64,000 bases of DNA from Sphaerolaimus hirsutus (taxonomy: Eukaryota > Nematoda > Chromadorea > Monhysterida > Sphaerolaimidae), in contig OZ038452.1 in NCBI GenBank assembly GCA_964036195.1, positions 19,727,785 to 19,791,784 of the forward strand. Reading direction: 5' to 3'. The notes below the pieces were generated by a model. The model saw nothing but the letters and a program-made list of their open reading frames with translations, made no database searches and was not told where the DNA came from. Shown in pieces: positions 854 through 60,070 of the stretch (positions are counted from its first letter, which is position 1; the number at the start of each line of letters is the position of its first letter). A program made the position numbers and the translations under genes.

Positions 854-2530
854 TACCGTATTTCCTCGAAAAATCCCTTATTGAATTAACCCCCCCCCTC
901 GAAATACACCCAGGTGTTTTTGAGCTCGGGAAAAAATAACCCCCCCCCCTCGAAATACGCCCGTCTGTAATGATGTACATCATGTATGCAATCTACATGA
1001 TGTACTTTATGCGGCCAATTTGCATCATAACTACACATAGACTAGTAGGTGTAGCAATGTACGTCTCTGTGTCCTAATATAGGTATGCCGTTTAGTCACG
1101 TTTATTGATAGTTATGGGTACGTAAAAACCCATTCTCTACTAGGGTGTCAAATTTCCGTTTTCAGTTTTCCGTTTCCGTTTTCCGCGGGCAATTTTTTTT
1201 CCGTTTTCCGTTCCGTTTTCCGGCTGCTGAAATTTTTTCCATTTTCCATTCCGTTTTCCAGCAACTTTTTTTTCCGTTTCCGTTTTTCCGGCTCATTTTC
1301 CGTTTTCCTAATTTTCGTTCTCAGACTAATAGTAGTACGTAGATGGTATAAACACTGTTCAAACGTGATTACGACATTGTTTTAACGTGTGTTCTGCACT
1401 ACGCAGAACACAAACTGCAGTATTTGTCATGTACGTTCTCTTTACACTCAATCTGGGGGGTGTTTCGAGTGGGGGTGATTCTTCGTTGTGGTCTCGCGAG
1501 GGGAGGGGGGTCAAACGAGAGGGGAGGGGGGTATTTCGAGGGGGGGTATTTCGAGCAAATACAGTATATATAATAACGTATAATATATCCTATTTCGTCC
1601 CATTTATTACAGGTTGAGGGCATTTTCAAAGCAATTTTTACTACTAAATTGACGAAAATTTCTGGCGAAATAAAAAACCCAACCCCTCGAATAAGCCCCC
1701 CTCGAAATACCCCCCTCAACATTTCCACTCTGAAAAAACAAAACCCCCTGGGGGTATTTCAAGGAAATACGGTAACTTTGTCCAGTATACATTGTGTGTC
1801 AAATTTCTGTTTTCCATTTCCGTTTTCCACAGGCAAATTTTTTCCGTTTTCTGTTCTGTTTTCCAGCTGCTGAAATTTTTTTCTCCATTTTCTGTCCCGT
1901 TTTCCAGAAACTTTTTTTCCGTTTCTGTTTTTCTGGCTCATTTTCTGTTTTCCAGCTAAATTTTCAGTTTTTCTGCCTATTTTCCATTTTCCGCCTCAAT
2001 TTCCAGTTTTTCCGCCTTTTTCCATTTTCCGCCTCAATTTTCCATTTTTCCGCCTCATTTTACCGTTTTCTGGCTCAACTTTCTGTTTTCTGATCAGCCA
2101 AACTGGTAAAAATTCATGCAGATTGTCAATGATGTGAAATTTTTTCTGTTTCCAGCAAAATTACTGCAAATTTTTTCCACTTCCAGCAAAATTTCAGCAA
2201 ATTTTATCCGTTTTCCGGCAAAATTTCAGCAAGTTTTTCCATTTCCAGGCAAATTTGATTTTTCCGTATCCGTTTTTCCGGCCTCTTTTTCTGTTTGCCA
2301 GCCGCTGAAAATTTTTTTCCATTTCCGTTTCCGTTTTCCGCCAAGTGCAATTTTTTTCCGTTTTCCGTTCCGTTTTCCGGCCGCTGAAAATTGTTTTTCA
2401 TTTCCGTTTCTGTTTTCCGTAAAAAAAATTTTTTGACACCCTATTCTCTACTACCATATTTTACGAAAATTTCTGGCGAATTAGTAACCCCCCCCTCGAA
2501 TAAACCCCACCTCGAAATGCCCCCCCTTAA
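854..2530. mobile_element. TA-type element split by a hAT-like insertion
   Basis: The left end, TACCGTATTTCCTCGAA, starts at 854 and is followed by CCCCCTCGAAATAC blocks to about 960. A region containing ATGATGTACATCATGTATGC follows; it recurs at 32318-32350. The word-filled element 1141-2443 interrupts it. Afterwards the CCCCTCGAATAAACC and TCGAAATGCCCC blocks resume to about 2530. I could not fix the right end precisely. It is non-coding. Confidence 0.55.
1141..2443. mobile_element. hAT-like MITE, TTTTCCG word
   Basis: The inverted ends are TAGGGTGTCAAATTT at 1141 and ...TTTTTTGACACCCTA at 2443. Flanking 8-bp direct repeats TTCTCTAC at 1133-1140 and 2444-2451 match exactly. Both flanks of the interior consist of reiterated TTTTCCG, TTTTCCATTTCCG and CCGGCTGCTGAAATT units. 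The middle (about 1330-1790) carries TA-type element sequence with G runs, so another element landed inside. The frames rich in Phe, Ser and Pro (1145-1342, 1794-2093, 2116-2436) are read-through of the word and not genes. An 8-bp duplication and a TAGGG end are hAT hallmarks. Confidence 0.85.
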
Positions 2531-2884
2531 AATGATCGAGACAACCTGCAAATCCCATTTTTGTAGTTAGTGATATCTAAATTCCGTCTGCCGATTTGAC
2601 ACGGTTTTTCAACACGAAAAACAAATTTAGTTAACAATGCTATCGTATAGGTTAGACGATGAGATTTCATTTATAACAAAAATGAGTTCAATATCTCTTT
2701 CCAATCAAAAGTTATATCCATTCTTCAAATTTTTCCCTCCCATCCACATAAATAACTGCATGAAGAATGATGCATGCAACTTTAAAACGCCAAATCTCAA
2801 CCATTTCTCAGCCGATTTACACCACTGAATGCTTAAAATGATTGGAATAATATGGCGAGATAGATTTTATCCTCAGTTTATCTC
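2531..2884. other. Unassigned interval
   Basis: AT-rich DNA without recognised coding, RNA or repeat structure. The 63-residue frame at 2637-2828 has no motif I know. Confidence 0.4.
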
Positions 2885-3085
2885 AGGGGTCTGGTAAGGG
2901 GGGGGAGGGTTGGGGGGGGGGGTTACCCCCCCCCCCCAAACGCTCCAGCTATCTATCTATCCCGGAGGCCGCTCAGCTATCTAAATATCTATCCTGAGGC
3001 GAAATTTTTGGCTACTATCCCCTGAACCCCCCCCCCAAAAAAAAAAAAAAATCGCCAGCTAAATATCTATCTATCCTGGAGCGAT
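2885..3085. repeat. AGCTATCTATCTATCC word repeat with G/C runs
   Basis: Long G and C runs flank repeated CAGCTATCTATCTATCC units and a GGCTACTATCCCCTGA segment. A related, inverted-looking set of units lies at 18150-18275 (GATAGCTAGATAGCTCGG, GATAGATAGATGGCTGG). This is probably another word-filled element. I could not find a clean target duplication. Confidence 0.5.
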
Positions 3086-3254
3086 TTTTGAGAAATTTAC
3101 TCTAATTTTCACTCTAAATCACTACTGTTCATTCCTATTTATATATTTTCACCATCAAAATCATCAATGTGTATGCCTTATCGCACATTTTCAGCTATTT
3201 TTGGCTATTTATGTGCTATTTGTACCTATTTACTCTTAACCTATTTTTAACTAA

Positions 3255-3980: not shown

Positions 3981-4628
3981 CAGATAGCCATGGTTATATA
4001 CCTATTTTTACCAAATTTTATTTATACAGGGGTGGGCATTTTCAGTTTCCGCTGGAAAAACGCGATAGCTTGAGCTACAGTTGAGCTATCACAATGAAAT
4101 TTTTACACAATAGAGTAGACTCCATAGGACACCTATTCTGAAGTTTGCAACCCAAATGGCCACATTTTCAGTGAGTTATGACATGCAGACTTTTTAGTGT
4201 AATTTTGTGACTTGACCCCTCTTATCACAGGACTGGGGGACTATTTGAGAAAAAAAAAGAATTTTGTCATAGCCCCGACCCCAAACCCCAACCCCAACCA
4301 AACACCAGATAGCCATGGTTATATACCTATTTTTACCAAATTTTATTTATACAGGGGTGGGCATTTTCAGTTTCCGCTGGAAAAACGCGATAGCTTGAGC
4401 TACAGTTGAGCTATCACAATGAAATTTTTACACAATAGAGTAGACTCCATAGGACACCTATTCTGAAGTTTGCAACCCACATGGCCACATTTTCAGTGAG
4501 TTATGACATGCAGACTTTTTAGTGTAATTTTGTGACTTGACCCCTCTTATCTCAGGACTGGGGGACTATTTGAGAAAAAAAAAGAATTTGGTCATAGCCA
4601 GGCTGGCCGCGAGAGTTCCGCACATGTG
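3981..4628. repeat. 324-bp tandem duplication of a hAT-like end
   Basis: CAGATAGCCATGGTTATATA begins at 3981 and again at 4305. The following sequence, including the transposon end CAGGGGTGGGCATTTTC (4027 and 4352), is repeated nearly identically until an insertion interrupts the second copy at 4599. The duplicated unit includes flanking host DNA plus the 5-prime end of the element. Confidence 0.8.
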
Positions 4629-5714
4629 TTTCCGCACACAAGCACACAAAAAAACATTGGGTGGAGACATGTTCCGCGCAATGACACGAACTGAGGTAGC
4701 CTGACGCGCGCGCAGACACACAACAGACGCAGCTCTGCGCGCGCACAAAAATGGCGCGCGCATAACAGGCAACGTCTGCGTGCAAAACAAATCATTTTGA
4801 CACGCAGAAAATTATCGCAGGAGCTATAAATTAGGCATTATGTTTAAAATTTCGCAATTAATTATTGTATTATGAAAATGAAATATTATGATGAAGAAAT
4901 ATCTAAGTTTTGGTTCATTATTCAGATGTTTTTAAGTCATCACACTTATTAGAAACAATGAAAATCAAGTGTCATAATATATTATTACAATTGCATCATT
5001 TGAGATTCACCACATTATTCTGATCATTTTAAGTGCTCAAACATCAAAATCAGTCGAGAATTCATGTAAATATGCAGTTCCGAATGTGGGGCCTTTTAAA
5101 AAAAACTACCCAATAATTACTTCGGAAGCTGCAGCCCCGGTGATTTTCATTACGTGTTCGTTTTGCGAACACGTAGAATCTGTTTGTGTGCTAAAAAAAA
5201 CGTTTCCGCGCGCCTGGTCAATTTGACCTCCATAAGTTTCGCGCGTTGACACGTTGTCTTTTTGTGCCCATAGGGCCGGTCAGCACACAAGCGCGCGGTT
5301 GCATTTTCTATGCGCGCAACAAAAATCGGTTCCGCGCGTTTGTTTTAGCACGGTGTTTTTCACGCGCGGAACACTCGCGGCCAGCCTGGTCATAGCCCCG
5401 ACCCCAAACCCCAACATACTCAAAGGGCATCAAAATCGGCCAATGTACGACAGAATGAGACGACACCAAAACCGGTGACTCCCCCCCCCCTAAAATGCTA
5501 CCCTCGATTTGTCCTATGGGTGATGCCAAGTCACAAAATTACACTAAAAACTGTGTGTTCCACAACTCACCCAAAATGTGGCCGTTTGGGTCGCAAACTT
5601 CAGAATAGGTCCCCTATGGAGTCTACTCTATTGTTTTAAAATTTCGTTGTGATATCTCTACTGTAGCTGAAGCTATCGCGTTTTTCCAGCGGCAACTGAA
5701 AATGCCCACCCCTG
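4352..5714. mobile_element. hAT-like element with CAGGGGTGGGC ends
   Basis: The ends are CAGGGGTGGGCATTTTCAG at 4352 (duplicated at 4027) and the complement ending CCACCCCTG at 5714. The next subterminal sequence TTTCCGCTGGAAAAACGCGA is also inverted at the other end. Flanks TATTTATA (left) and TATTTGTA (right) agree at 7 of 8 positions. Without the nested 4599-5388 element it would be about 570 bp. CAGGGGTG is a classic hAT terminus. No transposase frame is visible. Confidence 0.75.
4599..5388. mobile_element. hAT-like MITE, CGCGC word, nested
   Basis: The ends are CAGGCTGGCCGCGAG at 4599 and the complement CTCGCGGCCAGCCTG ending at 5388. The 8-bp flanks GTCATAGC (4591-4598 and 5389-5396) are identical. 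Subterminal regions are rich in TTCCGCGCG and GCGCGCACA words. The AT-rich middle (about 4800-5100) resembles the small TA elements at 61449-61644. Short minus-strand frames at 4552-4795 are word read-through. Confidence 0.85.
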
Positions 5715-6898: not shown

Positions 6899-7685
6899 CA
6901 GAGTTGTTCAAATACTGGTATTTTTGGAAAGTGTAAGTGTAAGTGTAAATACACTTTCCAAATTTGAAGTATGGATACCAAAAGTGTAAGGTATTTTTAA
7001 AATACCCAGGAAAGTGTAAAAAAAAAGTGTAAGCCTAAAAATTTTTTTAGAAAGAGCTCTCACTGTTGAGCATTAGAAAACACCACTGTTTTCACCTTTA
7101 GATTGATTTATCTATCATTTTTATTCATTATTTCACATTTTACTGCCAATTTTGAAACATTTCAGACTGTAACAAATTTAGTGGTATGAAGTTGCCTAAT
7201 AATGGCACTTTTTCAGTGTTAATATTTTACTGATTAAGCAATGTGATACACTCTGTTTCAATGCAAGAATGTACATGCAGCAAATATCAATGCAAAAGCA
7301 GTCAACTTTGTGTCCAGCTGGTGAATTTCAATTGATCTTGTCCTTTTTACAAAAGTATGATGAAACTGTAGAAAACCATGAGTACTGTTCAAAGGTGAGA
7401 GATAGTGCTAGTTTGCACATTTGCCATATTTTCTACATTCAATGCATAACTGCATATGTGCACTCTGCAGTTATTTTTTGTACATGAACCTGTTTTATGC
7501 TTTCTCAAAAGCATAAAACAGGGCCATCTGAAAGAAAAAATACACTTTCTGTACCCAGGTATTTTGCCCAGGAAAGTGTAAAAAAAGTGTACGGGTATTT
7601 TATGAAAGTGTAAGTGTAAGTGTAAATATAAATACCCATTTACCCAGGTATTGCGGGTAAGTGTAAATACACTTTCGCAAATCTG
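6899..7685. mobile_element. hAT-like MITE, AAGTGTA word
   Basis: The ends are CAGAGTTGTTCAAATAC at 6899 and ...CACTTTCGCAAATCTG at 7685. Flanks GTCCATAT at 6891-6898 and 7686-7693 are identical. Reiterated AAGTGTAAGTGTAAATAC blocks fill both ends in inverted orientation. The interior has no long coding frame; 7269-7487 encodes 72 residues without known features. The sister elements at 21619, 24689 and 33887 share ends and layout but use AAGCGTA or AAACGTA throughout. Confidence 0.85.
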
Positions 7686-14640: not shown

Positions 14641-15759
14641 CAGGGTGTGCATCATTTCAAATGCTAGTCACTTCAAATGCTGCCAAAAAGCTCGCTTCAA
14701 ATGCTGTAGTGCATCATTTCAAATGCTACTGTGCTAGAAGTGGTATAGGGATGGCAAGCGCTTTTTTTCAAGCGCTTTTTTTTTTAAAAACGCCGCTTTT
14801 TTTTAAAAAAAAGCGCAAGGGTCCCAGCGCTTTTTTTTAAAAAAAAGCGCTGGCAAAAATTTTGGTACTCATGCACTAGGTATTTTGCAAAAAATTTTGC
14901 GCGCAAGCGCATAATTTCACATGCAAATTGCCATTGGTGGTTTTTTTCATTGGTTCATTTTAGTGGCATTGCTTCTATTCCTGCATGGTATCATGTAATA
15001 ATAAGTTGAGGAGATATGTCAGTGTAGTAAATAATATCCAGCCAATGTGCTTCCACTTTTCTACAATGTGAAACATCACTGTTATGTATTAGCCATCTTT
15101 TATAGCCAAATTTAAGCACTATTCCTTGCCTAACTTCACTTGCAGTCAAGAAACATTCAAAAACGGCGATATACATAATTAGTCGACATAAAATAGGATT
15201 TTTTTGGCAGAAATCAGCACTTATAATGCCATCAGATGATTACACAGCCATTCTATGGTTATATATCATCACAAGTACTGCCACTTGACCGGTATACCTG
15301 TATATATTGACTCAGGACCATATTTGGGAGCTTTTTAGGTAATGTCTTGACCATTTTTGAAAAAAAGCGAAAAAAGCGCGTTTTTTTAAAAAAAAGCGCT
15401 TTTTTTAAAAAAAAAGCGGGGCCGTTAAAAAAAAGCGCTTTTTTCCATCCCTAAAGTGGTATGAGAAGTGAATTGGGAAGTAGAAAAACAAAAAACAAAT
15501 GGCAAGTGACAAGAAAATGTCTCAAAAATTTAAAAAAAATTCTGTTCACTTCTCATCCACTACTCTATTCATTTCTAATGCTCATGAAGTCCATTTTAGC
15601 GCCGCAGATGAGCAAGCATGAGATGATTGAATGGTGGCATAATTACTAACTGTAGGTAGTTGTCGCCTTACAGCATTTGAAATAATGCACTACAGCATTT
15701 GAAGTAAGCTTTTTTGGCAGCATTTGAAGTGACTAGCATTTGAAGTGGTCTGGGCTCTC
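14641..15759. mobile_element. hAT-like element, TTCAAATGCT word, carrying a nested element
   Basis: The left end is CAGGGTGTGCATCATTTCAA at 14641. The right side carries AGCATTTGAAGTG and GCATTTGAAATAATGCAC units in inverted orientation. Flanks GTCTTATA and TTCTTATA agree at 7 of 8. The element at 14746-15453 is inserted within it. CAGGGTGTGC closely resembles known hAT termini. Confidence 0.65.
14746..15453. mobile_element. hAT-like MITE, AAGCGCTTTTTT word
   Basis: The ends are TAGGGATGGCAAGCGC at 14746 and GCGCTTTTTTCCATCCCTA at 15453. Flanks AAGTGGTA at 14738-14745 and 15454-15461 are identical. Word units AAAAAAAGCGCTTTTTTT occur in inverted orientation near both ends. The interior is AT-rich; a minus-strand 61-residue frame (14991-15176) has no known motif. 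Confidence 0.85.
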
Positions 15760-15824: not shown

Positions 15825-16000
15825 CAGAGTTGTAAAAATACTGGTATTTTTTGAAAGTGTGAGCATAAGCATAAATACACTATTCAAAATTTTGAGTATG
15901 GATACTCAAGCGTAAGGTATTTTTAAAATACCTAGGAAAGCGTAAAAAAGCATAAGCATCAAAAAATTTTTAGAAAGTGCTCTTGCTGTTGAGCAGTCTA
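15825..16000. mobile_element. 5-prime relic of a CAGAGTTG hAT-like element
   Basis: CAGAGTTGTAAAAATACTGG at 15825 is followed by AAGTGTGAGCATAAGCATAAA, a decayed form of the AAGNGTA words, and then by the shared interior AGAAAGTGCTCTTGCTGTTGAGCA. It breaks off near 16000. Confidence 0.6.
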
Positions 16001-16053: not shown

Positions 16054-17617
16054 CCAGGGGCCAGATTTTATTCTCCCTACAGATTTGTAAGGTAGGGCAT
16101 ATCCCAGATAGATTTTTTAAAGTTCAGCCGCATCGACACACATGTAGTGATGTTAAAGGCACCGGGAAAAATGGCACCGCACCGCACCGGCACCTTTGCC
16201 AACGCATGAAAAGGGCACCTGGCACCCTGGGGCACCGGCCAGAAAATGGCACCGCACCGCACCGGCACCGGTGCCTTTTGGAAAAAATGGCACCGGCACC
16301 GAAGGGCACCAGCGGGTTGCCGGTGCTGGCACCGAAAGGCACCGCACCGGGCTGGAATTTCTGAAGTAAATATCGGGCAGTTTCTCAGCTGTCTCACCTT
16401 TGGAAGTGCATATTTCCATGAATTTTCAACCGATTTTGATGGTTGAGCACTTAAAATGATCAGAATGATGTGGCAATCACTTTTATGAAGCAGTTACAAT
16501 GATTACAAATGAAAGATAAAATATTTAATTCACTACAATGTCCATAGCCACTATTGTCTACTGATCATAGTCGTTGCTGTACAGAGAATGGAACTATCTC
16601 TGTCATAAACTGACAACAAATTTTGAACAAAAAGTAAGATAAATATAAAATATAAAAATGATTTAAAATTCAACAAAATTTTAGATTCGCTCATCACGTA
16701 TCGGGTATAATGGATTTCACAGTAGGTATATTTATTTGATGGGAGGTTTACAAAATAGGCAAAAACGGTTGGGTAAATATATCGCTGTTTTTTGAAAAAT
16801 GAATAAGCACATACTAGGGACAAAATTGCACAGCACATGAAGCCTTGGCCGGTGCCTTTCCCGGTGCCTTTTACTTTGGCCCTGGTGCTAGCACCTTTGG
16901 CACCGGCAAAAAAATGGCACCGCACCGCACCGGCACCGGTGCTATTCTGAAAAAAATGGCACCGGCACCGGCATGGCACCCCTGAAGATTGCAATGGCAC
17001 CGCACCAGCACCGGTGCTGGTGCCCTTCGGTGGCCAGCACCGGGGCACCGGTGCCCCGGTGCCTTTACATCACTACACACATGCACCGAGAGCAAGGCGG
17101 TTTGTAAAATATACGAAACCATCCCTTAAGGTCACCGATATTGCAATATGACGTATATCGCTTCGATTTTGGCCCGGAAATCACTATTTCGTCATTTCTT
17201 CGTCATTTCTGTCGGGCGGGTTACTCGCAAAAGTCGCGCTTTTGTGTAGTCAGGTGGTCACTTTTTTAGTGTTCACTGTCTGCAACCGAATCCGTGAGGG
17301 CAGCGACAAGAAAGAAATGCATGCACGAGCGTACAAAAGCGCGACTTATGCGAGTAACCCGCCCGACAAAATAAAATAAAAAGCGAATTGGCCGACGGCC
17401 AAGAAATGACGAAATCATGATTGCCGTGCCAAAATTGAAGTGATATAGGTCATATTTATTGCAATATCGGCGACGTTAAGGTAATTATGGTTTCGTATAT
17501 TTTACAAACCGCCTTGCTCTCGGTGCATGTGCGTCGATGCGGCTGAACTTCAAAAAATCTAACGGGCGTACGCCCTACCCTACAATTATGACGGGAGAAT
17601 TAAATCTGGCCCCTGGG
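16054..17617. mobile_element. Long-armed hairpin element with GGGGCCAGATTTAA ends
   Basis: CCAGGGGCCAGATTTTATTCTC at the left pairs with GAGAATTAAATCTGGCCCC at the right. The arms continue through GTTCAGCCGCATCGACACACATG, GCACCGAGAGCAAGGCGG and TTTGTAAAATATACGAAACC, each found inverted at 17485-17600. An inner hairpin of GTCGGGCGGGTTACTCGC is at 17211-17370. The GCACC element 16145-17075 interrupts the left arm. Related ends appear at 37980-38100 and 43185-43485. Confidence 0.75.
16145..17075. mobile_element. hAT-like MITE, GGCACC word
   Basis: The ends are TAGTGATGTTAAAGGCACCG at 16145 and GGTGCCTTTACATCACTA at 17075. Flanks CACACATG (16137-16144 and 17076-17083) are identical. Both ends are packed with GGCACCG/CCGGTGCC words. 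The interior is AT-rich (about 16380-16850) without a gene. The terminal bases and layout equal those of the GCGCC family, but the word has A or T where that family has the central CG. ORFs at 16017-16446 and 16551-17122 are read-through. Confidence 0.9.
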
Positions 17618-18917: not shown

Positions 18918-19940
18918 TAGTGATGGAAAAGCGCCAGGAAAAATGGCGCCGCGGCGCCATCTGAAAAAATGGCGCCAGGCGCCAAAGGGCGCCAGAAACA
19001 ATGGCGCCAACAATAATAGTCACCATTTTAGCATGTATATTCTAACAGAAGCATTTATTTGTTAAGGGCAATATGTTATAACAGTTACCTGATGAAAAAA
19101 ACACAACAACAGCATAATCAAGGATATTATACATTCATCAAGTCAAATGTCATTTGTGGTTATAAACAATTTACAATTGACCCTGAAGTGACATGAGACA
19201 GCATTGAATTGGTGATTTGTACAGAAAATCTATTTTACATATTGCCACATATTTATACCACCTTCAAATGAAAATTTTGTGACATGTAAAAATGAAATTA
19301 GATAGAATAGTGTTTAGAATAGGACAGAAGACAATAAGAATGCATTGAGAATGATGTTTCATATTTTGTATTTTGTATAGAAGGAAATAGACTAGTTGTT
19401 ATATCGGCTACTACCATTATCACAGATTATTACATGCTAGCAAGCATAGATGGAAGTTATCACACTAGAGTGTAACAAAACTTGTGTAAATGCACTAGGG
19501 TCATTTTTTGCCATGCCAAATGAAAACATTCTGGTGCTAATCTCAGCGTGGGGGCATAGTGTTGCTGTCTATGTGGAATAAAAACAATGAACAGCAAGCC
19601 AAACTTGTAATTCTAGCAAAAAAATTACATGGTTCAATATGCTAAATAATAAAATGATGTCACTCAGCAGATAAGGTACTTGTATATGGAATAATGTCAG
19701 CACTCATCGCGGCATTTTGGCGCCATTTCTGGCGCCATGAAAAACAATGGCGCCGGGCGCCAAATTGGCGCCAGCAAAAATGGCGCCAAGCGCCAAGGGC
19801 GCCATTGCGCCATTCGAAATGATGGCGCCAGCGCCAAGAGGGCGCCAGAGAAAATGGCGCCAAGCGCCAATGGCGCCATGGCGCTGGCGCCCTTTGGAGC
19901 CATTGAATGGCGCCAGCGCCATGGCGCCATTCCATCACTA
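18918..19940. mobile_element. hAT-like MITE, GGCGCC word (intact)
   Basis: The ends are TAGTGATGGAAAAGCGCC at 18918 and GGCGCCATTCCATCACTA at 19940. Flanks CTGGAAAC (18910-18917 and 19941-19948) are identical. GGCGCC arrays occupy about 100 bp on the left and 250 bp on the right. Between them lie about 670 bp of AT-rich DNA without coding sequence. The six overlapping frames at 19660-20018 are read-through of the palindromic word. Confidence 0.9.
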
Positions 19941-21618: not shown

Positions 21619-22829
21619 CAGAGTTGTTAAAATACCGCTATTTTTGGAAAGCGTAAGCGTAAGTGTAAATAAACTTTCCAAATTTTGAGTGTGGATACTA
21701 AAAGCGTAAGGTATTTTTTAAATACCTAGGAAAGCGTAAAATAAAGCGTAAGCGTAAAAATTTTCTGTGAGTTTTTGCTCAGTGAATTCGTTAAAAATCA
21801 AGCTTTCAGCGACATTTTTCAGATGTCCACTTGGTAATCTGCCCTTAGATGTTGATGGCACTTAATCGACAGCACCAGTATATTAATCTTCATTTCCGAA
21901 CTCGGACATTGTGCTGTCCATTTTTGCGATGTATTTATGCATAATTCTCATAAATACTTACCGCATTTCTTCATATAGAGTAAACGTAAGATACACTTAT
22001 GTCATCTTCATTTTCGAACTCGTGCATTTTCGGTCACAAAATTTCTATTCTGAAGCCATTGCCATCTAAAGCCATCTACCGTATTTACTCGAATAATTCC
22101 CCCCCTCGAATAATTCCCCCCTGCTAGACGAGTGAGGAAAAAATAATTCCCCCACTTGAATAATTCCCCCACTTGAATAGTCCCCCCCCCCCAAATGAGA
22201 GGATAGATAATGCACATATATTTGGAAAAAACAACCGATGAAATGAAACCAAGCAAAAAAGCTGTGCCTGGACTGATTCATCAAATACAAATGCAGCACA
22301 TCCGGTGTGCAAAAATGCAATTTAATGTGCATTACCAATGGAAATTGGATGTACATGTGTATGTAGTGTGATGAAAATATACCTGAAAATTTTGAGGAAA
22401 AAATAATACCCCTACTTGAATAATTCCCCCCTTGAATAGTTCCCCCCTCAAAAATGTCTGAGGAAAAAATAATTCCCCGGGGGAATTATTCGAGTAAATA
22501 CGGTAAATATTTCGCCCGACGACACAGTATAAAGGAGACATTGATATTGTGACACAATTTGTCAAATACATGTGCCGTTTTTTCCAATGCATTACTGTAC
22601 ACATGCAGTCTTTTTGTATGCAGTTTCATTCATTTTTTTGTAGTTTTACACTTTTTACAAAGGCATAAAACCGGACCATGTGAAAAACTTTTTTACGCTT
22701 TTAGTACCCGGATATTTCGACCGGGAAAGCGTAAAAAAGCGTATTATGAAAACGTAAGCGTAAGCGTAAGTATAAATACCCATTTACCCGGGTATTTCGT
22801 GTAAGCGTAAATACGCTTTCGCAACTCTG
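21619..22829. mobile_element. hAT-like element, AAGCGTA word, with nested TA-type element
   Basis: The ends are CAGAGTTGTTAAAATACCG at 21619 and ...CGCTTTCGCAACTCTG at 22829. Flanks GGTTTTAG and GGTTTTTA differ by a one-base slip. Both ends carry AAGCGTAAGCGTAAG blocks. The interior contains remnants resembling a transposase tail on the minus strand (about 21850-21910 and 22000-22050). A TA-type element occupies 22077-22504. Confidence 0.8.
22077..22504. mobile_element. TA-type element, TCGAATAATTCCCC word
   Basis: The ends TACCGTATTTACTCGAATAA (22077) and TTATTCGAGTAAATACGGTA (22504) are perfect complements. CGAATAATTCCCCCC blocks sit on the left and the inverse on the right. It is nested in the AAGCGTA hAT-like element. 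Confidence 0.85.
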
Positions 22830-24688: not shown

Positions 24689-25614
24689 CAGAGTTGTGCA
24701 AATACTGGTATTTTTGGAAAACGTAAACGTAAACGTAAATACCTTTTCCAAATTGAAAGTATAAATACTAAAACGTAAGGTATTTTTAAAATACCGAGGA
24801 ATACGTAAAAAAAAACGTAAACGTAAAATTTTTTACACACAGTATTTGCCATTGTGCTTTGGAAAATACCATTATTTTCACCTTTAGATGGGTCAATTGC
24901 TCCATCTGGTCCACTTTCTGCTGCCAGTTTGGCCAACTACGCTGGTGATTTTGGGGGAGTTCCAGACCCTGTAAAATGCCTTGTAAAATGTCAAATGGCA
25001 TGCAAAGTGCCTAAAGTCATGAAAAATGCCCTGGGAGGTGGCAAATCTTTGCCATTTTGCTGGGCATTTTACATGAGCTTTGACATTCGCATGAAATTTT
25101 ACATTTTACAGGGCATCCTACAGAGTCTGGGATTGGCACCAGAAGATGCCCTCACCCTGCCAGTTTCAAAACGTGTGCTACTCACAGTTGTTGCAAGTGG
25201 TGTCGTCGGAATTCATCACAAAAAAATTATAAACGCAAGGCTCCACAAGCAAACAAAAAGGTTTCTGTAGTCAGCATTTGAACACATTTATGAATAAATA
25301 TGTACCCAGTATTCCATGCGTAAGTGAAAGTGTGCAGTCACTTTCTGATACACCACTTTTTTGTATGTATACATGTTACGTTTATGCAAAAACATAAGGA
25401 TATTGTTGGCTGCAGGTTGTGCAGCCCATTTGAACACGTGCACGTGTGCACGATCACAAGTTTTTTTTACGTTTTCCCCTGTACCCGGGTATTTTGGTCA
25501 GGAAAACGTAACAAAACGTAATGGTATTTTTGGAAAACGTAAACGTAAATGTAAGTATAAATACCCGAATAACCGGGTATTTCGGGTAAACGTAAATACG
25601 TTTTTCCAACTCTG
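24689..25614. mobile_element. hAT-like element, AAACGTA word
   Basis: The ends are CAGAGTTGTGCAAATACTGG at 24689 and ...CGTTTTTCCAACTCTG at 25614. Flanks GTACGTAG (24681-24688 and 25615-25622) are identical. Both ends carry AAACGTAAACGTAAA blocks. The middle holds a distinct TGTAAAATGTCA-type repeat also seen at 35345-35480 and 59395-59815. The 138-residue frame at 24854-25270 overlaps that repeat and has no recognised domain. Confidence 0.85.
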
Positions 25615-32903: not shown

Positions 32904-33110
32904 AATAACGTATAATATATCCTATTTCATCCCATTTATTACCGGTTGAGCTCATTTTCAAAGCAATGTTTACTACTAAATTGACGAAAATTTCTGGTGA
33001 AATAATAAACCCGACCCCTCGAATAAGCCCACCTCGAAATACCCCCTCAAAATTTCCACTCTGAAAAAATAAACCCCGTGGGGGTATTTCAAGGAAATAC
33101 GGTAACTTTA
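32904..33110. mobile_element. TA-type element remainder
   Basis: ATAACGTATAATATATCCTATTT, GAAAATTTCTGGTGAAATAA and the right end GGTATTTCAAGGAAATACGGTA (about 33102) duplicate 1567-1772. Its left part lies before or under the preceding element. Confidence 0.6.
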
Positions 33111-33886: not shown

Positions 33887-34713
33887 CAGAGTTGTACAAA
33901 TACTGGTATTTTTGGAAAACGTAAACGTAAACGTAAATACATTTTCCAAATCAAAAGTATAGATACTAAAACGTAAGGTATTTTAAAAATACCGGGGAAA
34001 ACGTAAAATAAAACGTAAACGTAAAAATTATATTAAGTGCTTCCGCTATCAGAGAATACAAAAAAACACAATGTTTTTTACAACATTATGGATGTTCATA
34101 TGATCTCCATCGACATTTTCTGCTTACCTGTATTTTATATATATTTAGAATGATGGGATCGGGATATTGAATTGGGATTTAAGTTGGAATTTCGCATCGT
34201 TGTCAACTAGTGGGTGTCAACCATAAGGTGTCAATTCCATAACAGGAGAACTAAAAAAATTATGTGTGAGAAGTAATGGCAAGTTGTATGGCAAGTAAAA
34301 ATTGAAAGAAAAGTAAATTTGTAAGTGAAATGGTAACTTAAAAGACAAATGGCCAGTCATGAGAAAACACTATAAATGTCTTTAACTTTTTATTGCATTT
34401 CAGTTCTCCCTCACAAAAATACTTTCCTTCAACTTTTTACTTTTCACTTACAAATTGGTGTTAAGTTCTCCAATTGCGGAATTAGTACTCTTCAACATTA
34501 GAACATGTTGAACTCATCATATTACACTATATTTGTCAAACAATATTGTTCCGTGTAGCATATTTTTACGTTTTCTCTGGTACCCGGGTAATTGTGCCAG
34601 GAAAACGTAACAAAGCGTAACGGTATTTTTGGAAAGCGTAAACGTAAACGTAAGTATAAATACCCGAATAACCGGGTATTTCGGGTAAACGTAAATACGT
34701 TTTCGCAACTCTG
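33887..34713. mobile_element. hAT-like element, AAACGTA word
   Basis: The ends are CAGAGTTGTACAAATACTGG at 33887 and ...CGTTTTCGCAACTCTG at 34713. Flanks GTCACAGG (33879-33886 and 34714-34721) are identical. AAACGTAAACGTAAA blocks are at both ends. It is a sister of 24689-25614 with a different interior. Confidence 0.85.
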
Positions 34714-35584: not shown

Positions 35585-35958
35585 CATAGGCGGCACAAGG
35601 TCCCAATTTGTGCTTGTGACATTCACATTAGCCAAAATTTCTCCTTGTGACACCTTTCTATTGGGGCCCTTATGTGAAGTTGGCAGCCAGCCAAAAATTT
35701 TGAAATGGCTATGAAAATAAACAAAATTCATATAAAATAGGCATATAACCATGTAAATAGATGAAAATAGTGATTGTAAAGGTGAAAATTGGTAAAATGG
35801 AGCAAATTTTGGTGATTTTCAGTTAATTTTGAGCTTTCACTCTTGTTTGTACAATACACGCTTGTGAATGTCACAATGTGACAGTGAAATTTCTGCTTGT
35901 GACACCAAAAATTCCACTTGTGACATTCACAAGTGTACAAGCACTTACGCCGCCTATG
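35585..35958. mobile_element. MITE with CATAGGCGG ends, GTCACAAG word
   Basis: The ends are CATAGGCGG at 35585 and CCGCCTATG at 35958. Flanks ATTGGGGG (35577-35584 and 35959-35966) are identical 8-mers. TTGTGACATTCACA and GTGACACC units are inverted at the ends. The terminus does not fit YARNG strictly, but the 8-bp duplication fits hAT. Confidence 0.8.
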
Positions 35959-41745: not shown

Positions 41746-41774
41746 TTTTGCAAGCCTCTGAGTAGTGGGTACCT

Positions 41775-44249: not shown

Positions 44250-44967
44250 TAGTGATGGAAAAGCGCCAGAAAAAACGGCGCCAAGCGCCAATGGCGCCAT
44301 GGCGCCATTCGGAAAGTGCGCGCCAGGCGCCAAGGGCGCCACGGAAAGAGGGCGCCAAGCGCCAAGGGCGCCAGGGCGCCAATTGGAAAATAGGGCGCCA
44401 GGCACCAATGGCGCCAGAATACATACCATATTTCTTCTAATAGAAGAGCGCCCTTCTATATTTTGTCAACTTTTTTACCTGCTCTTCTATTAGAGACGCC
44501 TTTCTATTGAAAGCCACTGTTTTATATTCTTCGAAATTTTTTCAGGCAAGTTTTGCCAAAGTTTTTCAGAGTGTCAAATCGTCACATACGATTCACACAA
44601 TGACGATACATAGGTTTATATAATATTTAGTCTTGAAATAGAACAAAATCAATGGACCGAAGGCATAAATTTGATCATTCACTTTCTCCATGATGTATCC
44701 AAAAAAACGAGATAGGCAACAAACTTCTGACTTGTCAGATGTATTTATCTGATAAACTGTTGGACAGAAGATTTACGTCCACTCGCATTTTTGTGGCGTA
44801 TTCCCATTGTCAACGCATGCGCTTTTTTAATTTTAATTTTATTTTTCCATTTACGCTACATTCGCCTTGAAACTTTTGGGCAGGGCGCCACAGGAAAAGG
44901 GCGCCATGGCGCGGCGCCCTTTGGCGCCCTCAAATGGCGCCAGCGCCATGGCGCCATTCCATCACTA
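44250..44967. mobile_element. hAT-like MITE, GGCGCC word, with nested AGAAGGGCG fragment
   Basis: The ends are TAGTGATGGAAAAGCGCC at 44250 and GGCGCCATTCCATCACTA at 44967. Flanks CATACGAT (44242-44249 and 44968-44975) are identical. GGCGCC arrays are at both ends. Near 44424-44515 a TA-type AGAAGGGCG element (ACCATATTTCTTCTAATAG) was inserted and has partly decayed. No gene is present. Confidence 0.9.
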
Positions 44968-45481: not shown

Positions 45482-45720
45482 CAGTGTTGTTAAAATACTG
45501 GTATTTTTGGACAATGTAAACGTAAACATAAATACCTTTTCCAAATTAAAAGTATAATACTAATACATAAGGTATTTTTAAAATACCAAGGAATACGTAA
45601 AAAAATACGTAAACGTAAAAAAAAATTATGTGTAGTATATGTCATTCTGTTTTGGAAAATACCATTATTTTCACCTTGTGATGGGTAAATCACTGATTTC
45701 CATGCAATATCTTAATGTTT
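45482..45720. mobile_element. 5-prime end of an AAACGTA hAT-like element
   Basis: CAGTGTTGTTAAAATACTGG with AATGTAAACGTAAACATAA and TACGTAAACGTAAAA matches 24689-24900, including CATTCTGTTTTGGAAAATACC. The far end was not found. Confidence 0.6.
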
Positions 45721-47117: not shown

Positions 47118-47546
47118 TACCGTATTACCTCGAAATACCCCCAGGGGGTTTATTATTTCGCCAGCAAAATTTGAGGGGGGGATAATTCGAGGGGGGGTTT
47201 ATTCGAGGGGGGGGTCTATTATTTCGCCAGAAATTTTCAGAAATTCCCCATACTCGGCCGTAGAAAAATCGAACAATTACATAGATGTATATGTATTTAT
47301 AGGTATATATAACTGTATATGCACATAAACCCTACCCTAAAGTCACTCAATCATCAGTTTTAACGTGTGTTCTGCATTGTACAGATAACAAACTACGGTA
47401 TTTGTCATGAACGTTATCTTTACACTCAATGTTAGGGGGGGTATTTCGAGGGGGGAGTTTATTATTTCCTCAGCCGAATTTTAGGGGGGGTATTTCGAGG
47501 GGGGGGGGGTTAATTCAAGGGGGGGATAATTCGAGGTAATACGGTA
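47118..47546. mobile_element. TA-type element, CCTCGAAATACCCC word (intact)
   Basis: The ends are TACCGTATTACCTCGAAATA (47118) and TAATTCGAGGTAATACGGTA (47546). It has CCCCCAGGGGG near the left, runs of up to ten G in the right half, and TGTTCTGCATTGTACAG in the centre. It is nearly the same as 49734-50166, showing recent activity of this family. Confidence 0.9.
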
Positions 47547-49733: not shown

Positions 49734-50166
49734 TACCGTATTACCTCGAAATACCCCCAGGGGGTTTATTATTTCGCCAGCAAAATTTGAGGGGGGGATA
49801 ATTCGAGGGGGGGTTTATTCGAGGGGGGGTCTATTATTTCGCCAGAAATTTTCGGAAATTACCCATACGCGGACGTAGAAAAATCCAACAATTATATTGA
49901 TGTATATGTGTTTATACGCATATATAACTGTATATACACAAAAACCCTTCCCTAACGTAACTTAATCATCAGTTTTAACGTGTGTTTTGCATTGTACAGA
50001 TCACAAACTGCGGTATTTGTCATGTACGTTCACGTTACACTCAATGTTAGGGGGGGTATTTCGAGGGGGGGGGGGGGTTATTATTTCCTCAGCCGAAATT
50101 TAGGGGGGGTATTTCGAGGGGGGGGGGTTAATTCAAGGGGGGGGGTTAATTCGAGGTAATACGGTA
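49734..50166. mobile_element. TA-type element, CCTCGAAATACCCC word (intact)
   Basis: TACCGTATTACCTCGAAATA at 49734 and TTAATTCGAGGTAATACGGTA at 50166. It is nearly collinear with 47118-47546 (TATTATTTCGCCAGCAAAAT, ACTTAATCATCAGTTTTAAC). G runs reach 13. It immediately follows the WD40-like exon region. Confidence 0.9.
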
Positions 50167-50401
50167 TATAAAAGAATACATTGATCCTATTTTATCGAAC
50201 ACCAACGATTTTTCAAATAATTTTTTCTTGAACCGCAATGTGAGAATACCAGCATTCTGAAAAAAAAATTTTAATAGCTACAAGAAAACGTAAAAATTGA
50301 ATATTTTTACAGGTTCTCCCGGTTCTACCAGAGGATCTGAACCACATTGCAATTTTGAGAGATTTCCGGAGATTCTCAAAATATTCACCAGAAAAAATAT
50401 A

Positions 50402-51163: not shown

Positions 51164-52494
51164 TAGTGATGGAAAAGCGCCATGGCGATGGCGCCTGGCG
51201 CTAGCGCCAAAGCAAAAAGCGCCATGGCGCTTTTGGCGCTTGGCGCTAAAACGCTCTGGCGCCATTGGCGCTTGGCGCCGTGCTTCCAAAAAGCGCCATG
51301 GCGCTTTTGGCGCTTGGCGCTGCTATCCGGTGGCGCCATTGGCGCTTGACGCTAGCCTTTTAAAAAGCGCCAAAAAAGCGCCAGACAGTAAAAAACGCGC
51401 AGCTGACGTGCGCTAACGTGCGCGCGCGCGCACCTTTGAAGTCCAGGAGTACCATAAAGACCCAATATTCCAAAATTGTAGAGTTGTTACAATACTCATA
51501 TTTTTGGAAAACGTAGAAGTAAATACCCTATCAAAATATTAAGTATTTACTGTATTTCCTCGAAATACCCCCAGGGGGTTTATAAAGTGTGTAGACGTAT
51601 AAACACTGTTCTCACATAACAGAGTCTTCGTTTTTAACGTGTGTTCTGCATTGCCAGGATGCCAAACCGCAGCCTTTGTCCTTTACGTTCTCTATACACT
51701 AAATTTGGGGGAGGGTATTTCGAGGGGGGGGGGGTTATAAGTTCATAGTGTCCATTTTGAGGGGGGGGGGTATTTTGAGGGGGGTATTTCGAGAAAATAC
51801 GGTATATATGGAAATAACTTTTTTACTCACCCCTGAGTACAGAAAATTTCCAATACAGTTTAAACCCATACTCATGAGTATCTTCGAGTAAAATATGTTT
51901 TCCAGAAAAATGCAAAATCAACTAGTTTTGTAAATACATTTTCACAACTGTGCAAAATTACGCCACATTTACTTGCAACTTCAGCTGAGCTCTAATTCCG
52001 GCTTTACTGGTGTCATAGAGAGGGCGTTTAGTATTTAAATACCTAAAGTGTTTAGGTACATTGTGTGAAATAGGATATGTTCTGTACTGATACGTTGGAA
52101 ACTGGCACACTAATTAAATACAACAACAAATTTTTATAGGATAAATATTAGGTAAAAATGCTTTTTTTGGTTACAATTTGGATGTTGTTATTGTGTTTTG
52201 GGAAGAGATATAATGCACACAAAGTGATAATAGTGCATGTACGAGACCGTGAACTGCGCCTTCATTAAAATAGAGCGAAATCACTTTGGCGCTGGCGCCA
52301 TTGGCGCTTGGCGCCATTGCCTCCTGGCGCCATTGGCGTTTGGCGCTGTGACCCAGAAAAGCGCCATGGCGCTTTTGGCGCTTGGCGCTCAAACGCTCTG
52401 GCGCCATTGGCGCTTGGCGCCGTGCTCCAAAAAAGCGCCATGGATGGCGCTTTTGGCGCTTGGCGCCAAAAGTCTGGCGCTTTTTCCATCACTA
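51164..52494. mobile_element. hAT-like MITE, GGCGCC word
   Basis: The ends are TAGTGATGGAAAAGCGCC at 51164 and GGCGCTTTTTCCATCACTA at 52494. Flanks CCCAGTAC (51156-51163 and 52495-52502) are identical. GCGCC arrays flank an AT-rich middle with nested elements. Frames 50912-51289 and 52171-52573 are word read-through. Confidence 0.9.
51479..51952. mobile_element. hAT-like element, ACTCA/GAGTA word
   Basis: It starts TAGAGTTGTTACAATACTC at 51479 and ends TACATTTTCACAACTGTG at 51952. Flanks CAAAATTG and CAAAATTA agree at 7 of 8. Words ACTCACCCCTGAGTA and ACTCATGAGTA replace AAGNGTA. The TA-type element 51548-51804 is nested within. Confidence 0.65.
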
Positions 52495-53144: not shown

Positions 53145-54635
53145 TAGTGATGTTAAAGGCACCGGGGAAAATGGCACCGCACCGCACCGGCACCTTTGCC
53201 AACGCATGAAAAGGGCACCTGGCACCCTGGGGCACCGGCCAGAAAATGGCACCGCACCGCACCGGCACCGGTGCCTTTTGGAAAAAATGGCACCGGCACC
53301 GAAGGGCACCGGCGGGTTGCCGGTGCTAGCACCGAAAGGCACTGCACCGGGCTGGAATTTCTGAAGTAATATCGGGCAGTTTCTCAGTGGTCTCACCTTT
53401 GGAAGTGCATATTTCCATGAATTTTCAACCGATTTTGATGGTTGAGCACTTAAAATGATCAGAATGATGTGGCAATCACTTTTATGAAGCAATTACAATG
53501 ATTACAAATGAAAGATAAAATATTTAATTCATGACAATGTCCATAGCCACTATTGTCTACTGATCGGAGTCGTTGCTGTACAGAGAATGGAACTATCTCT
53601 GTCATAAACTGACAAAAAAATTTGAACAAAAAAGTAAGATAAATATAAAATATAAAAATAATTTAAAATTCAACAAAATTTTAGATTCGCTCATCAGATC
53701 TAGTGATGTTAAAGGCACCGGGAAAAACGGCACCGCACCGCACCGGCACCTTTGCCAACGCATGAAAAGGGCACCTGGCACCCTGGGGCACCGGTCAGAA
53801 AATGGCACCGCACCGAACCGGCACCGGTGCCTTTTGGAAAAAATGGCACCGGCACCGAAGGGCACTGGCGGGTTGCCGGTGCTAGCACCGTAAGGCACCG
53901 CACCGGGCTGGAATTTCTGAAGTAAATATCGGGCAGTTTCTCAGTGGTTTCACCTTTGGAAGTGCATATTTCCATGAATTTTCAACCGATTTTGATGGTT
54001 GAGCACTTAAAATGATCAGAATGATGTGGCAATCACTTTTATGAAGCAATTACAATGATTACAAATGAAAGATAAAATATTTTATTTACTACAATGTCCA
54101 TAGCCACTATTGTCTACTGATCGGAGTCGTTGCTGTACAGAGAATGGAACTATCTCTGCCATAAACTGACAACAAATTTTGAACAAAAAAGTAAGATAAA
54201 TATAAAATATAAAAATGATAAAAATTCAACAAAATTTTAAATTCGCTCATCAGATCATGTATCGGGTATAATGGATTTCACAGTAGGTATATTTATTTGA
54301 TGGGAGGTTTACAAAATAGGCAAAAACGGTTGGGTAAATATATCGCTGTTTTTTGAAATATGAATAAGCACATACTATGGACAAAATTGCACAGCACATA
54401 AAGCCTTGGCCGGTGCCTTTCCCGGTGCCTTTTACTTTGCCCTGGTGCTAGCACCTTTGGCACCGGCAAAAAAATGGCACCGCACCGCACCGGCACCGGT
54501 GCTATTCTGAAAAAAATGGCACCGGCACCGGCATGGCACCCCTGAAGATTGCAATGGCACCGCACCAGCACCGGTGCTGGTGCACTTTGGTGCCCAGCAC
54601 CGGGGCACTGGTGCCCCGGTGCCTTTACATCACTA
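53145..54635. mobile_element. hAT-like MITE, GGCACC word, with tandemly doubled left half
   Basis: The ends are TAGTGATGTTAAAGGCACCG at 53145 and GGTGCCTTTACATCACTA at 54635. Flanks ATTGCGAC and ATTGCGGC agree at 7 of 8. The left half (53145-53700) is repeated at 53701-54257, each copy beginning with a full terminus and ending CGCTCATCAGATC. The right portion then continues as in 16145-17075. This copy therefore has two left ends and one right end. Confidence 0.9.
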
Positions 54636-56659: not shown

Positions 56660-57261
56660 TAGGGTTCAAACGGGATTGACTTTTCGGGATCGGGATCGGG
56701 ATCGGGATTCACTTTTTGAGATTTCGGGATCGGGATCGGGATTGGGGTTTCGGGATCGGGATCGGGATTGGGATTGGTATTTTGAGATTTCGGGATCGGG
56801 ATCGGGATTGGCCGGGATTGGGGTCACGGGATTGGGATCGGGATTGGCATTTTTTCGGGATCGGGATTGGGGTCTAGGGATAGAGATTTTCGTCACTGTT
56901 CTGGCATTCACAGTTGTTCATAAAGGTCTTAAAACACTGTTGGATGCCAGAAAAGTGACATAAAATGGACGCTGGGGGTTTGCGTTCACATTTTTGCATG
57001 CAAAAATGTCATTTTCTCACTTTTTATAATTTCCATTATTTTTTCCGGGATCGGGATACCGGACTTGGGAGATTCTCGGGATCGGGATCGGGATTTGAAA
57101 GTTTTCGGGATCGGGATCGGGATCGGGATTGGTATTTTTGGATTTCGGGATCGGGATTGGGATCGGGATTGGGGTTTCGGGATCGGGATCGGGATTGGGA
57201 CTGCTAAATCCCGGAATTTCACGGGATCCGGGATCGGGATCGGGATCCCGTTTGAACCCTA
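56660..57261. mobile_element. hAT-like MITE, CGGGAT word
   Basis: The ends are TAGGGTTCAAACGGGATTG at 56660 and ATCCCGTTTGAACCCTA at 57261. Flanks ATTTGCAG (56652-56659 and 57262-57269) are identical. TCGGGATCGGGATCGGGATT units fill both sides. Here the word array keeps the same sense on both sides up to the last few bases, unlike the inverted arrays of other families. Arg/Asp-rich frames at 56666-57262 are read-through. Confidence 0.9.
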
Positions 57262-57494: not shown

Positions 57495-58905
57495 TAGGGC
57501 TCGAACTTGACTCGACTCGTGACTCGAGGGTAAAATGGGGTGCCGACTCGACTCGACTGACTCGACCGGAAAAATATGGCCCAGACTCGAGACTCGAGGT
57601 TTTTGCCCGACTCGACTTGAAAATTCAGCCAATTTTGAGTCGGGGTTTCCCATTGAATCATATCAAAAATATAAATTTTAATATGACTTTCAAACATTTT
57701 TTGCAAAAATTTTGCACGCAAGAGCGCATTTCCGCACCGCATGCAGCATATACAATTGCTTGTCATATCTATTCAGTGATGTCTAAAGTCAAGTTTCTCA
57801 ACTCAAGTTGCTATACAAAACGTACAGAATGAAACACACACACACCACGTCAAATACATTCCACAATGTTGGCACTGACCCAAAAAGATGTAATGTAGTT
57901 GATTTAACTTCACTATTGGATTGGAATGAATGAATGAATGAATATGAATACAACAATGTCTAGGCAGTATGTGTCTTGTCACCTTCTCTCGACACTTTGC
58001 ATGACATTTTACATTTTACATGGCATTTTACAGGGTCACCAGCCTCTGTAAACAAACACTCCCATTAAAAAAGGTATAACTAAAAAATCTCTGCCACTAA
58101 AAAATCAGGTCATTTAAAGGTGTTGTTTTCCATCCCCAGGCTGGCTTCATTTTTGTTTGTGGCAACATCAAGAAAGTGAATATGTGTGACAAAATGTTAT
58201 ATTTTTGCTTGATATTAAAATCAACCGTTGGCATTAGTGTGTGTGTGAAAACATTGGTTGAAGAACCAGTATCTGCAGTGCCGTATCCAGGGGGGCGGGG
58301 GCCCCCCTTCCCGGGGTGAGACAAGAAAAGTTCAGGAAAATGTCACTTTCACTACAAATTTCCAAAGTTTTGTAAAAAAATTTTGCGTGCAAGCGCGCAA
58401 TTGCCACTCAGAAGGTCTTTTCTCTGGATACCTCCCATATAGGCAAACCTATGTCAATACCCTCAATTTTCTGCCTGTCGCTGTGTAATGTATGAGTATT
58501 TACCTACAAATACAGCAGTTTTTGGTGCTAGTGCCAACGCCAATGGCGCCATGGCGTGGCGCCTACAAATGGCGCCATGGCGTGGTGCCTACAAATGGCA
58601 CCAGCGCCTAGCGCTATTTCTTTAGTCTGTGATGGAAAATTTTAGGGGGGGGCTGAGCGTTTGCGGGGCTCCGTAAACAAACAGCCCCCCCGCTCCAAAA
58701 TCCTGGATACGTCCCTAAGTATCTGAAATTTCTGCAAGTATCATGTGAAAAAGTAACGCATCCGACTTGACTCGAGACTCGAGATTTTTGCCTGACTCGA
58801 CTCGACTTTTCACTGACTCGCCCAACTCGACTCGCCGACTCGACCGGAAAAATTTTGGTGTTGAGACTCGAACTCGAGTTTGAAAAAATCGAGTTTCGAG
58901 CCCTA
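57495..58905. mobile_element. hAT-like element, GACTCGA word
   Basis: The ends are TAGGGCTCGAACTTGACTCG at 57495 and GAGTTTCGAGCCCTA at 58905. Flanks GTTACCAT (57487-57494 and 58906-58913) are identical. CGACTCGACTCG words sit at both ends. The 1.2-kb interior holds a GAATGAAT microsatellite (57925-57945), a TGTAAAATGTCA piece (57990-58035), a CCCCCCGCTCC-type repeat (58280-58320 and 58640-58710) and a GCGCC fragment (58526-58620). Confidence 0.9.
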
Positions 58906-59013
58906 GTTACCATGTTATGTGAACCTATGTTACCAGTCCGATGAAAAGTCACATAAAGCCTTACATAATTCAGATTAGATGGGACAAATGTTGAATACCC
59001 ATGCAATCACAAG

Positions 59014-60070
59014 CAGGGTTGGTTTTTTAAAAATTCGTTTTAGTAAAATTGTATAAAAATTGTATAAAAATTTTATTTAATTTTTATTTTATTCTTGTTT
59101 CATTTTATTTTATTTTATTCCCAAAAGTCATAAATAAAATAAAATGACACATTTTACAATTTTTTTACAAAAATTGTACAAAAATTTTACAAAAAAATCA
59201 GAAACATGCATGCAAGGCCAGAAAAATGTTATGATTAGACCTATACATGAAAAACCTGTGAAAAATTTTTCCCTTACTTTTCAAAAGTTGCATGCAGTAT
59301 GTATTGTTAGCTAGCTGCAAGTGTAAAGTTACAATTATTGATAAGAATGATTTGCATTTTCAGTAGAAGGACTACTGGAGTGTGCTGGGCACATTTGTAA
59401 AATGTCATGCAAAGTGTCAATTGTCATGACAAATGTAAAGTAAAGTATCAATTGTCATGCAAAATGTCAAGTGTCATGTAAAATTTCAAGCAAAGTGGCA
59501 ATTGTCATGACAAATGTCATGCAAAGTGTATATTGTGTATCAAAATTTTGTGTTTTTGTATCCATAGTATGTTTTATATCCAAATCTTATGTTTTTGTAT
59601 CCAAATGTTCACATAAAATTTGGAGTCAACAACAACATAATTTGGATACAAAACATAAGATTTCCAAATAAAACATGAGATTTGAACACAATTTGCTTGA
59701 CAATTGATACTTTAATTTTTACATGTCATGACAATTTACACTTTACTTTACATTTTTCATGACAATTGACACTTTGCATGACATTTTACATGACATTTGA
59801 CACTTTACAATGCTTGGGACTGCCCCCAGATCCATGAATAAACAGGTAGAGACTCAAGCAATGAGACAAAATTTTACAAAAAAATATATGAATTTTTATA
59901 CAATTTTACAAAAATATGTATTTTTATACAATTTTACAAAAAAATTACAAAAATTTGAATTTTTATACAATTTTTATTTTTATTCTTAAATTTTCCATTT
60001 TGTTTAATTTTATTTTATTCTTGAATATTCCATTTTTTTAATTTTTTTCTCTGAGATTTTGCCAACCCTG
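59014..60070. mobile_element. hAT-like element, TTTTATTTTA word
   Basis: The ends are CAGGGTTGGTTTTTTAAAAA at 59014 and GAGATTTTGCCAACCCTG at 60070. Flanks ATCACAAG (59006-59013 and 60071-60078) are identical. AT-only words (AAAATTGTATAAAAATT, TTTATTTTATT) form both sides. The nested segment 59374-59822 carries TGTCATGCAAAGTGTCAATT words in inverted halves. Confidence 0.9.

Follow-up and report, generated by a model that had tools for sequence, protein, structure and literature searches.

Coherent in-place replacement of a short subterminal word in one group of non-autonomous hAT transposons of the nematode Sphaerolaimus hirsutus

Known hAT transposases bind short repeats inside the ends of their elements. 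Maize Ac has an 11-bp terminal inverted repeat (TIR) and, in the terminal 200 bp, AAACGG hexamers that its transposase binds cooperatively; some short Ds-related elements have little beyond the TIR and the hexamers in common with Ac, the remainder being filler DNA (PMC3260210). The BED domains of the Hermes transposase bind AAGT-type subterminal repeats, and their binding is cooperative at a quasi-palindrome of two repeats close to the left tip (PMC10368747). Herves transposase, also of the hAT type, binds CG/AATTCAT (PMC3143072). The BED/Hermes domains of CGGBP-type hAT proteins have diverse short specificities, which agree, for four hAT proteins, with subterminal sequence of the protein's own element (PMC8097297). 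Elements of this kind were analysed in a 64,000-nucleotide stretch of the nematode Sphaerolaimus hirsutus, positions 19727785-19791784 of contig OZ038452.1 (C3) in a genome of 348 Mb and 762 contigs; this whole stretch is referred to below as the window. Its hAT elements carry a private short word repeated inside their ends, and in one group, with CAGAGTTG ends, the word has been replaced coherently and in place.

Coherent motif turnover is already known from the VANDAL/VANC system of Arabidopsis. Its motifs differ by a letter between subfamilies (YAGTATTAC versus YAGTATTAT), the units within a repeat have diverged together and so have the motif arrays of VANDAL21; the motifs are bound by an anti-silencing protein, and change came via tandem repeats, according to the accessible part of that report (PMC5735166). 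The original prediction that coordinated rewriting is not described was too strong in that general form, in view of VANDAL21. Motif variants coherent within subfamilies occur here too, but the ends are of the hAT type, and the change in the CAGAGTTG group took place at spaced sites and not by tandem-repeat turnover. The likeness to Ac/Ds is that arrays of one family in the window, that of element E1, contain AAACGG; the likeness to Hermes is an inverted word pair behind the TIR, which is found in CAGAGTTG right ends in all three word versions seen and in the right ends of a TAGGGTTCAAAC group, where it is kept while its letters change. In contrast, Ac/Ds has one hexamer per family and the Hermes arrangement is unlike between its two ends; sister families with another or a coherently replaced word are mentioned in the accessible parts of neither paper (PMC3260210, PMC10368747), nor in that of the Herves paper (PMC3143072). 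The study of CGGBP-type proteins, as far as its accessible part goes, compared proteins across genomes and not coherent array rewriting within one (PMC8097297). Coral miniature inverted-repeat elements were set aside as a comparison, being piggyBac-like in the part of the source seen (PMC2872659). In the open-access literature searched, no in-place replacement at spaced hAT-end sites with sister word states in one genome was found, and this appears to be the new feature.

Fourteen elements (E1-E14, Table 1) had been predicted to have exact 8-bp target-site duplications (TSDs) and mostly YARNG ends, and both predictions were borne out. An exact TSD at the predicted start and a matching inverted right end are present in 14/14, and both ends read YARNG in 11/14, the exceptions being E2 (CAGGC), the right end of E3 (CAGAT) and E9 (CATAG). 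By their ends and TSDs, the elements are non-autonomous hAT transposons. A window scan with a fixed end pattern recovered 12 of them (all but E2 and E3) and one simple-sequence pair; the same scan gave 7 pairs over 20 first-order random sequences, a mean of 0.35 per 64 kb. A slightly stricter scan of contig C1, sampled as 20 ten-kb stretches at 1.3-Mb spacing, gave 20 pairs versus 0 in five random versions; a few of the 20, with CAGGGGTC and CAGGGCCG ends, are without an evident word. The resulting list comprises 63 elements, of which scanning supplied 61 and manual addition two (E2 and E3); L029 and L037 are one locus, and the pair at 32123-32620, rejected as an element because it is simple sequence, stays inside this list and inside the set of 62 TSDs. 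A target-site preference of the form nTnnnnAn is typical of Ac-type hATs. T at position 2 or A at position 7 was found in 71 of 124 positions in the 62 elements, 27 of which belong to the CAGAGTTG group (p 2.4e-10); this composition independently points to an Ac-type hAT. MULE-type elements, which include VANDAL, have TSDs of about 9 bp. The TSDs here have 8 bp, and the one transposase exon that was read, from the E1 family, is that of a hAT. When E7 was searched against a phage collection, no match was obtained.

A short word reiterated inward from both ends had been claimed for each element. The commonest end 6-mer with at least three different letters was compared with 200 dinucleotide shuffles; it exceeded all of them in 12/14 elements, and did not in E2 (7 versus a shuffle maximum of 7) and E14 (7 versus 8, its two-letter words being filtered out). 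The word is missing from the middle of 8/14 elements and sparser there in the other 6. Within one terminal group of the 63 listed elements, words are almost mutually exclusive. Four elements of the TAGTGATG group hold 26-44 GCGCCA and 0 GCACCG, and three hold 31-33 GCACCG and 0-1 GCGCCA. The TAGGGTTCAAA group has CGGGAT in three elements (25-46), CGGGAC in one (13) and CGATAT in one (33), with cross counts of 0-1. In the CAGAGTTG group, with L037 dropped, 25 distinct elements hold 10-17 AAACGTA and 0 AAGTGTA, and two hold 15 AAGTGTA; one of these two, the outer element of L009, also encloses a nested AAACGTA element. These near-exclusive counts confirm that, between sub-groups with the same termini, the word is changed in nearly all its copies. 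Members of the TAGGGTTCAAAC group have their first word fused to the terminal repeat. At 46315 and 47898 of the window, on the minus strand, lie two separate ends of this type; they carry CGATAT/CAATAT words and are apparently decayed relatives of L041 6195-6919; long frames are listed in L043 2114-5981 and L041 3287-5845.

The CAGAGTTG group is decisive because its spaced word sites lie between spacers that can be aligned. Its 15 sites (7 left, 8 right) form 10 blocks, namely two triplets, one pair and seven singles, which occupy fixed homologous places at both ends between spacers aligning copy by copy. The consensus of AAACGTA (ACG) copies was built from 33 left and 28 right ends, one locus being included twice. 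At the word-core bases, the AAGTGTA (GTG) copy L009 outer differs from it at 14/14 positions on the left and 13/14 on the right, and E3 at 13/14 and 15/16; at the other bases, the differences are 15/122 and 18/124 for L009 outer and 13/122 and 20/128 for E3, or 11-16% (Fisher p 1.8e-11, 4.2e-9, 2.7e-10 and 5.2e-10). E16 represents a third state, AAGCGTA (GCG) at 13/15 sites, one transition away from each of the other two; its spacers, judged by eye, are closer to the AAGTGTA copies than to the AAACGTA consensus. As the original prediction required, single elements do not hold continuous mixtures: leaving out E17, the expected word fills 406/440 cells in the ACG copies, 26/30 in the two GTG copies and 13/15 in the GCG copy. 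The remaining cells of the ACG copies comprise 13 GCG, 10 ATG, 6 ACA and 5 other. In E3, left site 7 reads GCC, and ATG at right site 6 of both AAGTGTA copies is an alignment-gap artefact. Nine sites point inward and six outward, and the change follows the word's own orientation, which excludes a strand-wise mutation bias. A second motif, GGTATT/AATACC, occurs 3-4 times per end in 18 of 20 rows examined (of 97) and twice in the right end of E16 and in a fragment at 20778. The AAACGTA element of L009 is nested in an AAGTGTA element, which places that GTG copy before that insertion and says nothing more.

Genome-wide, one left-end pattern of the CAGAGTTG family has 5,743 matches, and G-type arrays are abundant: in 2,223 matches, A is absent from the variable position of three left-end words. 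A tally by eye, made twice, of the first 100 in the list (every one on C1) gave 44 pure GTG, 38 pure GCG, 7 GTG/GCG mosaics and 11 with some other change; among the 89 listed rows with GTG and GCG only, 92% are pure, versus 25% if the three sites were independent. GCG also recurs within AAACGTA arrays, at right site 5 (E8, L002, L014 and L015), right site 6 (E8, L004 and L014) and left site 5 (L006, L022 and L024), with single cells in L013, L028 and L030. These cells resemble leftovers of the GCG state or steps leading away from it. CGAAA right ends are common to E8, L014 and L015 and to E3, E16 and L009 outer. Given these shared right ends and the state of E16, the simplest reading, on few copies, would be that GCG came first and that ACG and GTG followed as separate branches. 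The earlier statement that ordinary point mutation is unable to alter dozens of copies jointly went too far; mosaic arrays exist (GCG words in AAACGTA arrays, for example at right sites 5-6; GTG/GCG mixtures in 7 of the 100 listed), and therefore site-by-site substitution under selection fits.

A profile search for PF05699 (hAT dimerisation) gave 28 matches in the genome and 0 in 14 control genomes. The two best of the 28 (L051 and L052) sit in exact-TSD elements of 1,211 and 1,228 bp with TAGGGTGTCAA ends and 34-35 CGGAAA words, and the ends align to E1 at 87-94%. Their exon matches PF05699 at 6.8e-18 and the Hermes transposase at 1.4e-8; on this sequence similarity, the word family of E1 is tied to a hAT transposase. 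The maize Ac hexamer AAACGG occurs 21-23 times in each of these E1-family elements (L051, L052 and E1). Two multi-copy sets among the PF05699 matches, one covering profile positions 1-81 in mostly 111-aa frames and one covering about 40-82 in 73-74-aa frames, hint at additional short families in which a transposase exon was retained. When the window and L001-L050 were crudely scanned for hAT-like motifs, there were 0 hits. The proposed transposase link stands as to a hAT transposase in the E1 word family; a change in transposase specificity is something we infer.

The preferred explanation, with a probability of about 0.68, is site-by-site replacement of transposase-site words as specificity shifted. 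Since known hATs bind short subterminal repeats, the private word would be the predicted subterminal binding site of the transposase moving the element, comparable to AAACGG for Ac, and the word states would be specificity shifts. A transposase lineage would shift its base preference, and the words of related families would differ for that reason; the word sites in the element ends would follow by point substitution, site after site, until nearly all match. Elements with the most uniform arrays would then multiply, which would account for mostly pure end states with few mosaics.

Several points weigh against this explanation. Binding of the word by transposase, the change in specificity and selection as the driver of replacement are each inferred, and the transposase link spans the E1 family only (2 of the 28 PF05699 matches). 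The copies aligned over both ends are two GTG and one GCG (E16, with no exact TSD), and L001-L030, being the first exact matches to a single C1 pattern search, do not form a random sample. Both AAGTGTA elements hold two AAGCATA words farther in, beyond the aligned sites; the model does not predict them, and they may be products of CpG decay. Six of the 15 sites form the two tandem triplets, to which slippage may have contributed; these triplets and the AAGCATA words lowered the probability given to the explanation slightly. Against the observation of coherent private words itself, E1 mixes CGGAAA (29), TGGAAA (18) and CAGAAA (15) within one element, seemingly through CpG decay that went both ways once the element had inserted, and the words of E2 and E9 are weaker.

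The alternative that survives best, although unlikely, is that of independent families: old lineages with separate transposases and constrained spacers, whose words diverged slowly with nothing coordinated. It fits the several groups with different words and ends, and the GGTATT motif may be constrained too, but 84-89% of the non-word bases are common to the CAGAGTTG word states. It differs mainly in tempo from replacement under shifting specificity, and the two are not sharply distinguished here.

Re-amplification, in which a variant word spread by slippage or unequal exchange, as in satellites, and the founders then multiplied, is decidedly unlikely as the general explanation. Some families do have true tandem arrays (E12 repeats a 6-bp unit about 25 times; GCGCCA units of 16 and 74 bp), the TAGTGATG and TAGGGTTCAAAC groups align only partly beyond their first words, and the process is possible inside the two CAGAGTTG triplets; VANDAL arrays are explained in this way in the accessible part of the report (PMC5735166). 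The 15 CAGAGTTG words, however, lie in 10 homologous blocks at both ends and cannot be one amplified block. Because these blocks are separate and stand between aligning spacers, satellite-like re-amplification was rejected as the sole cause in this group. Of the earlier proposal, which offered re-amplification or conversion as the mechanism, the coherent rewriting itself is real, and re-amplification as the sole cause does not hold for CAGAGTTG.

Element-wide conversion, in which a template (an RNA or the ends of another element) rewrote all words at once, would suit the high purity of the listed G-type rows, but the 2-34-bp spacers between blocks were not carried along and mosaic arrays are present; we know of no mechanism for it, and it is very improbable. 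Least probable of all is a mutational origin by CpG decay or an editing-like process: the word contains a CpG, GCG to GTG is a CpG transition and E1 decays in both directions, but decay within families yields both TG and CA (10 and 6; E15 mostly CA), at the 15 aligned sites the two GTG copies show TG only and neither GCA nor GCG, the change goes with the orientation of the word and not with the strand, ACG versus GCG involves no CpG change and GCACCG contains a CpG at a place where GCGCCA does not, so that decay was rejected as the cause of the GTG state.

A more speculative and rather doubtful extension of the specificity-shift explanation is that the word serves as a recognition channel that lineages changed to gain independence from each other. 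An autonomous lineage shifting its preference by one letter would shed the burden of non-autonomous copies with the old word, and new short elements would re-evolve to the new word site by site. If so, the genome would hold successive channels (ACG, GCG and GTG) of one element, a case of parasite speciation by recognition code. It has long been asked how a DNA-binding protein evolves jointly with dozens of its sites. In this single genome, many copies of one element exist in three word states that differ by one letter at homologous sites, with mosaic intermediates; the three states and the hardly changed second motif allow the order and tempo of site turnover, and the selection in it, to be measured, and naturally matched transposase domains and words should be available for binding tests.

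Table 1. Transposon features and a dispersed repeat. Positions refer to the window, except for L051 and L052, where they refer to the locus.
Feature	Position	Strand	TSD	Ends	Word and remarks
E1, hAT element	1141..2443		TTCTCTAC	TAGGGTGTCAAA	AAACGGAAA, decayed; dispersed repeat nested at ~1379-1792; same family as L051/L052
E2	4599..5388		GTCATAGC	CAGGCTGGCC	CGCGC, weak
E3	6899..7685		GTCCATAT	CAGAGTTG/CAGATTTG	AAGTGTA, 15 counts, GTG state
E4	14746..15453		AAGTGGTA	TAGGGATGG	AAAAGCGC
E15	15825..15995	+		CAGAGTTG-family left-end fragment	Decayed GCG state (GCA 4, GCG 2, GTG 1)
E5	16145..17075		CACACATG	TAGTGATGT	GCACCG
E6	18918..19940		CTGGAAAC	TAGTGATGG	GCGCCA
E16	21619..22829		No exact TSD; flanks GGTTTTAG/GGTTTTTA	CAGAGTTG family	AAGCGTA
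E7	24689..25614		GTACGTAG	CAGAGTTG family	AAACGTA
E8	33887..34713		GTCACAGG	CAGAGTTG family	AAACGTA and two right-end AAGCGTA words
E9	35585..35958		ATTGGGGG	CATAGGCGGC	CACAAG
E10	44250..44967		CATACGAT	TAGTGATGG	GCGCCA
E17	45482..45690	+		CAGAGTTG-family left end, decayed	AAACGTA-type
E11	51164..52494		CCCAGTAC	TAGTGATGG	GCGCCA
E5-family partial copy	53145..53696	+			GCACCG; adjoins second copy
E5-family nearly full copy	53701..54635	+			96% identity to E5
E12	56660..57261		ATTTGCAG	TAGGGTTCAAACGGGAT	CGGGAT
E13	57495..58905		GTTACCAT	TAGGGCTCGAA	ACTCGA
E14	59014..60070		ATCACAAG	CAGGGTTGG	AT-only words, not significant in 6-mer test
L051, E1-family element	979-2189				Transposase exon
L052, E1-family element	979-2206				Transposase exon
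CCCCCCTCGAAAT/GGGGGGTATTTCGAG repeat	1379-1792, 14355-14484, 32718-33122, 47118-47546, 49734-50192, 51597-51818, others

The two E5-family copies at 53145-54635 are adjacent and in the same orientation, the first one being cut short. A 325-bp unit repeated 1.9 times (98%) at 3981-4599 stops at the first base of E2. The dispersed repeat with CCCCCCTCGAAAT and GGGGGGTATTTCGAG minisatellite blocks has many copies in the window and is nested inside E1 and E11. Satellite-like arrays with units including 116, 30 and 27 bp form a run at 38563-41750. The minus strand at 26637-29618 encodes a reverse transcriptase of the long interspersed element type (RVT_1, 8.5e-22), with an endonuclease-like sequence upstream in a separate frame (Exo_endo_phos, 4.5e-5, just under the Pfam cut-off).

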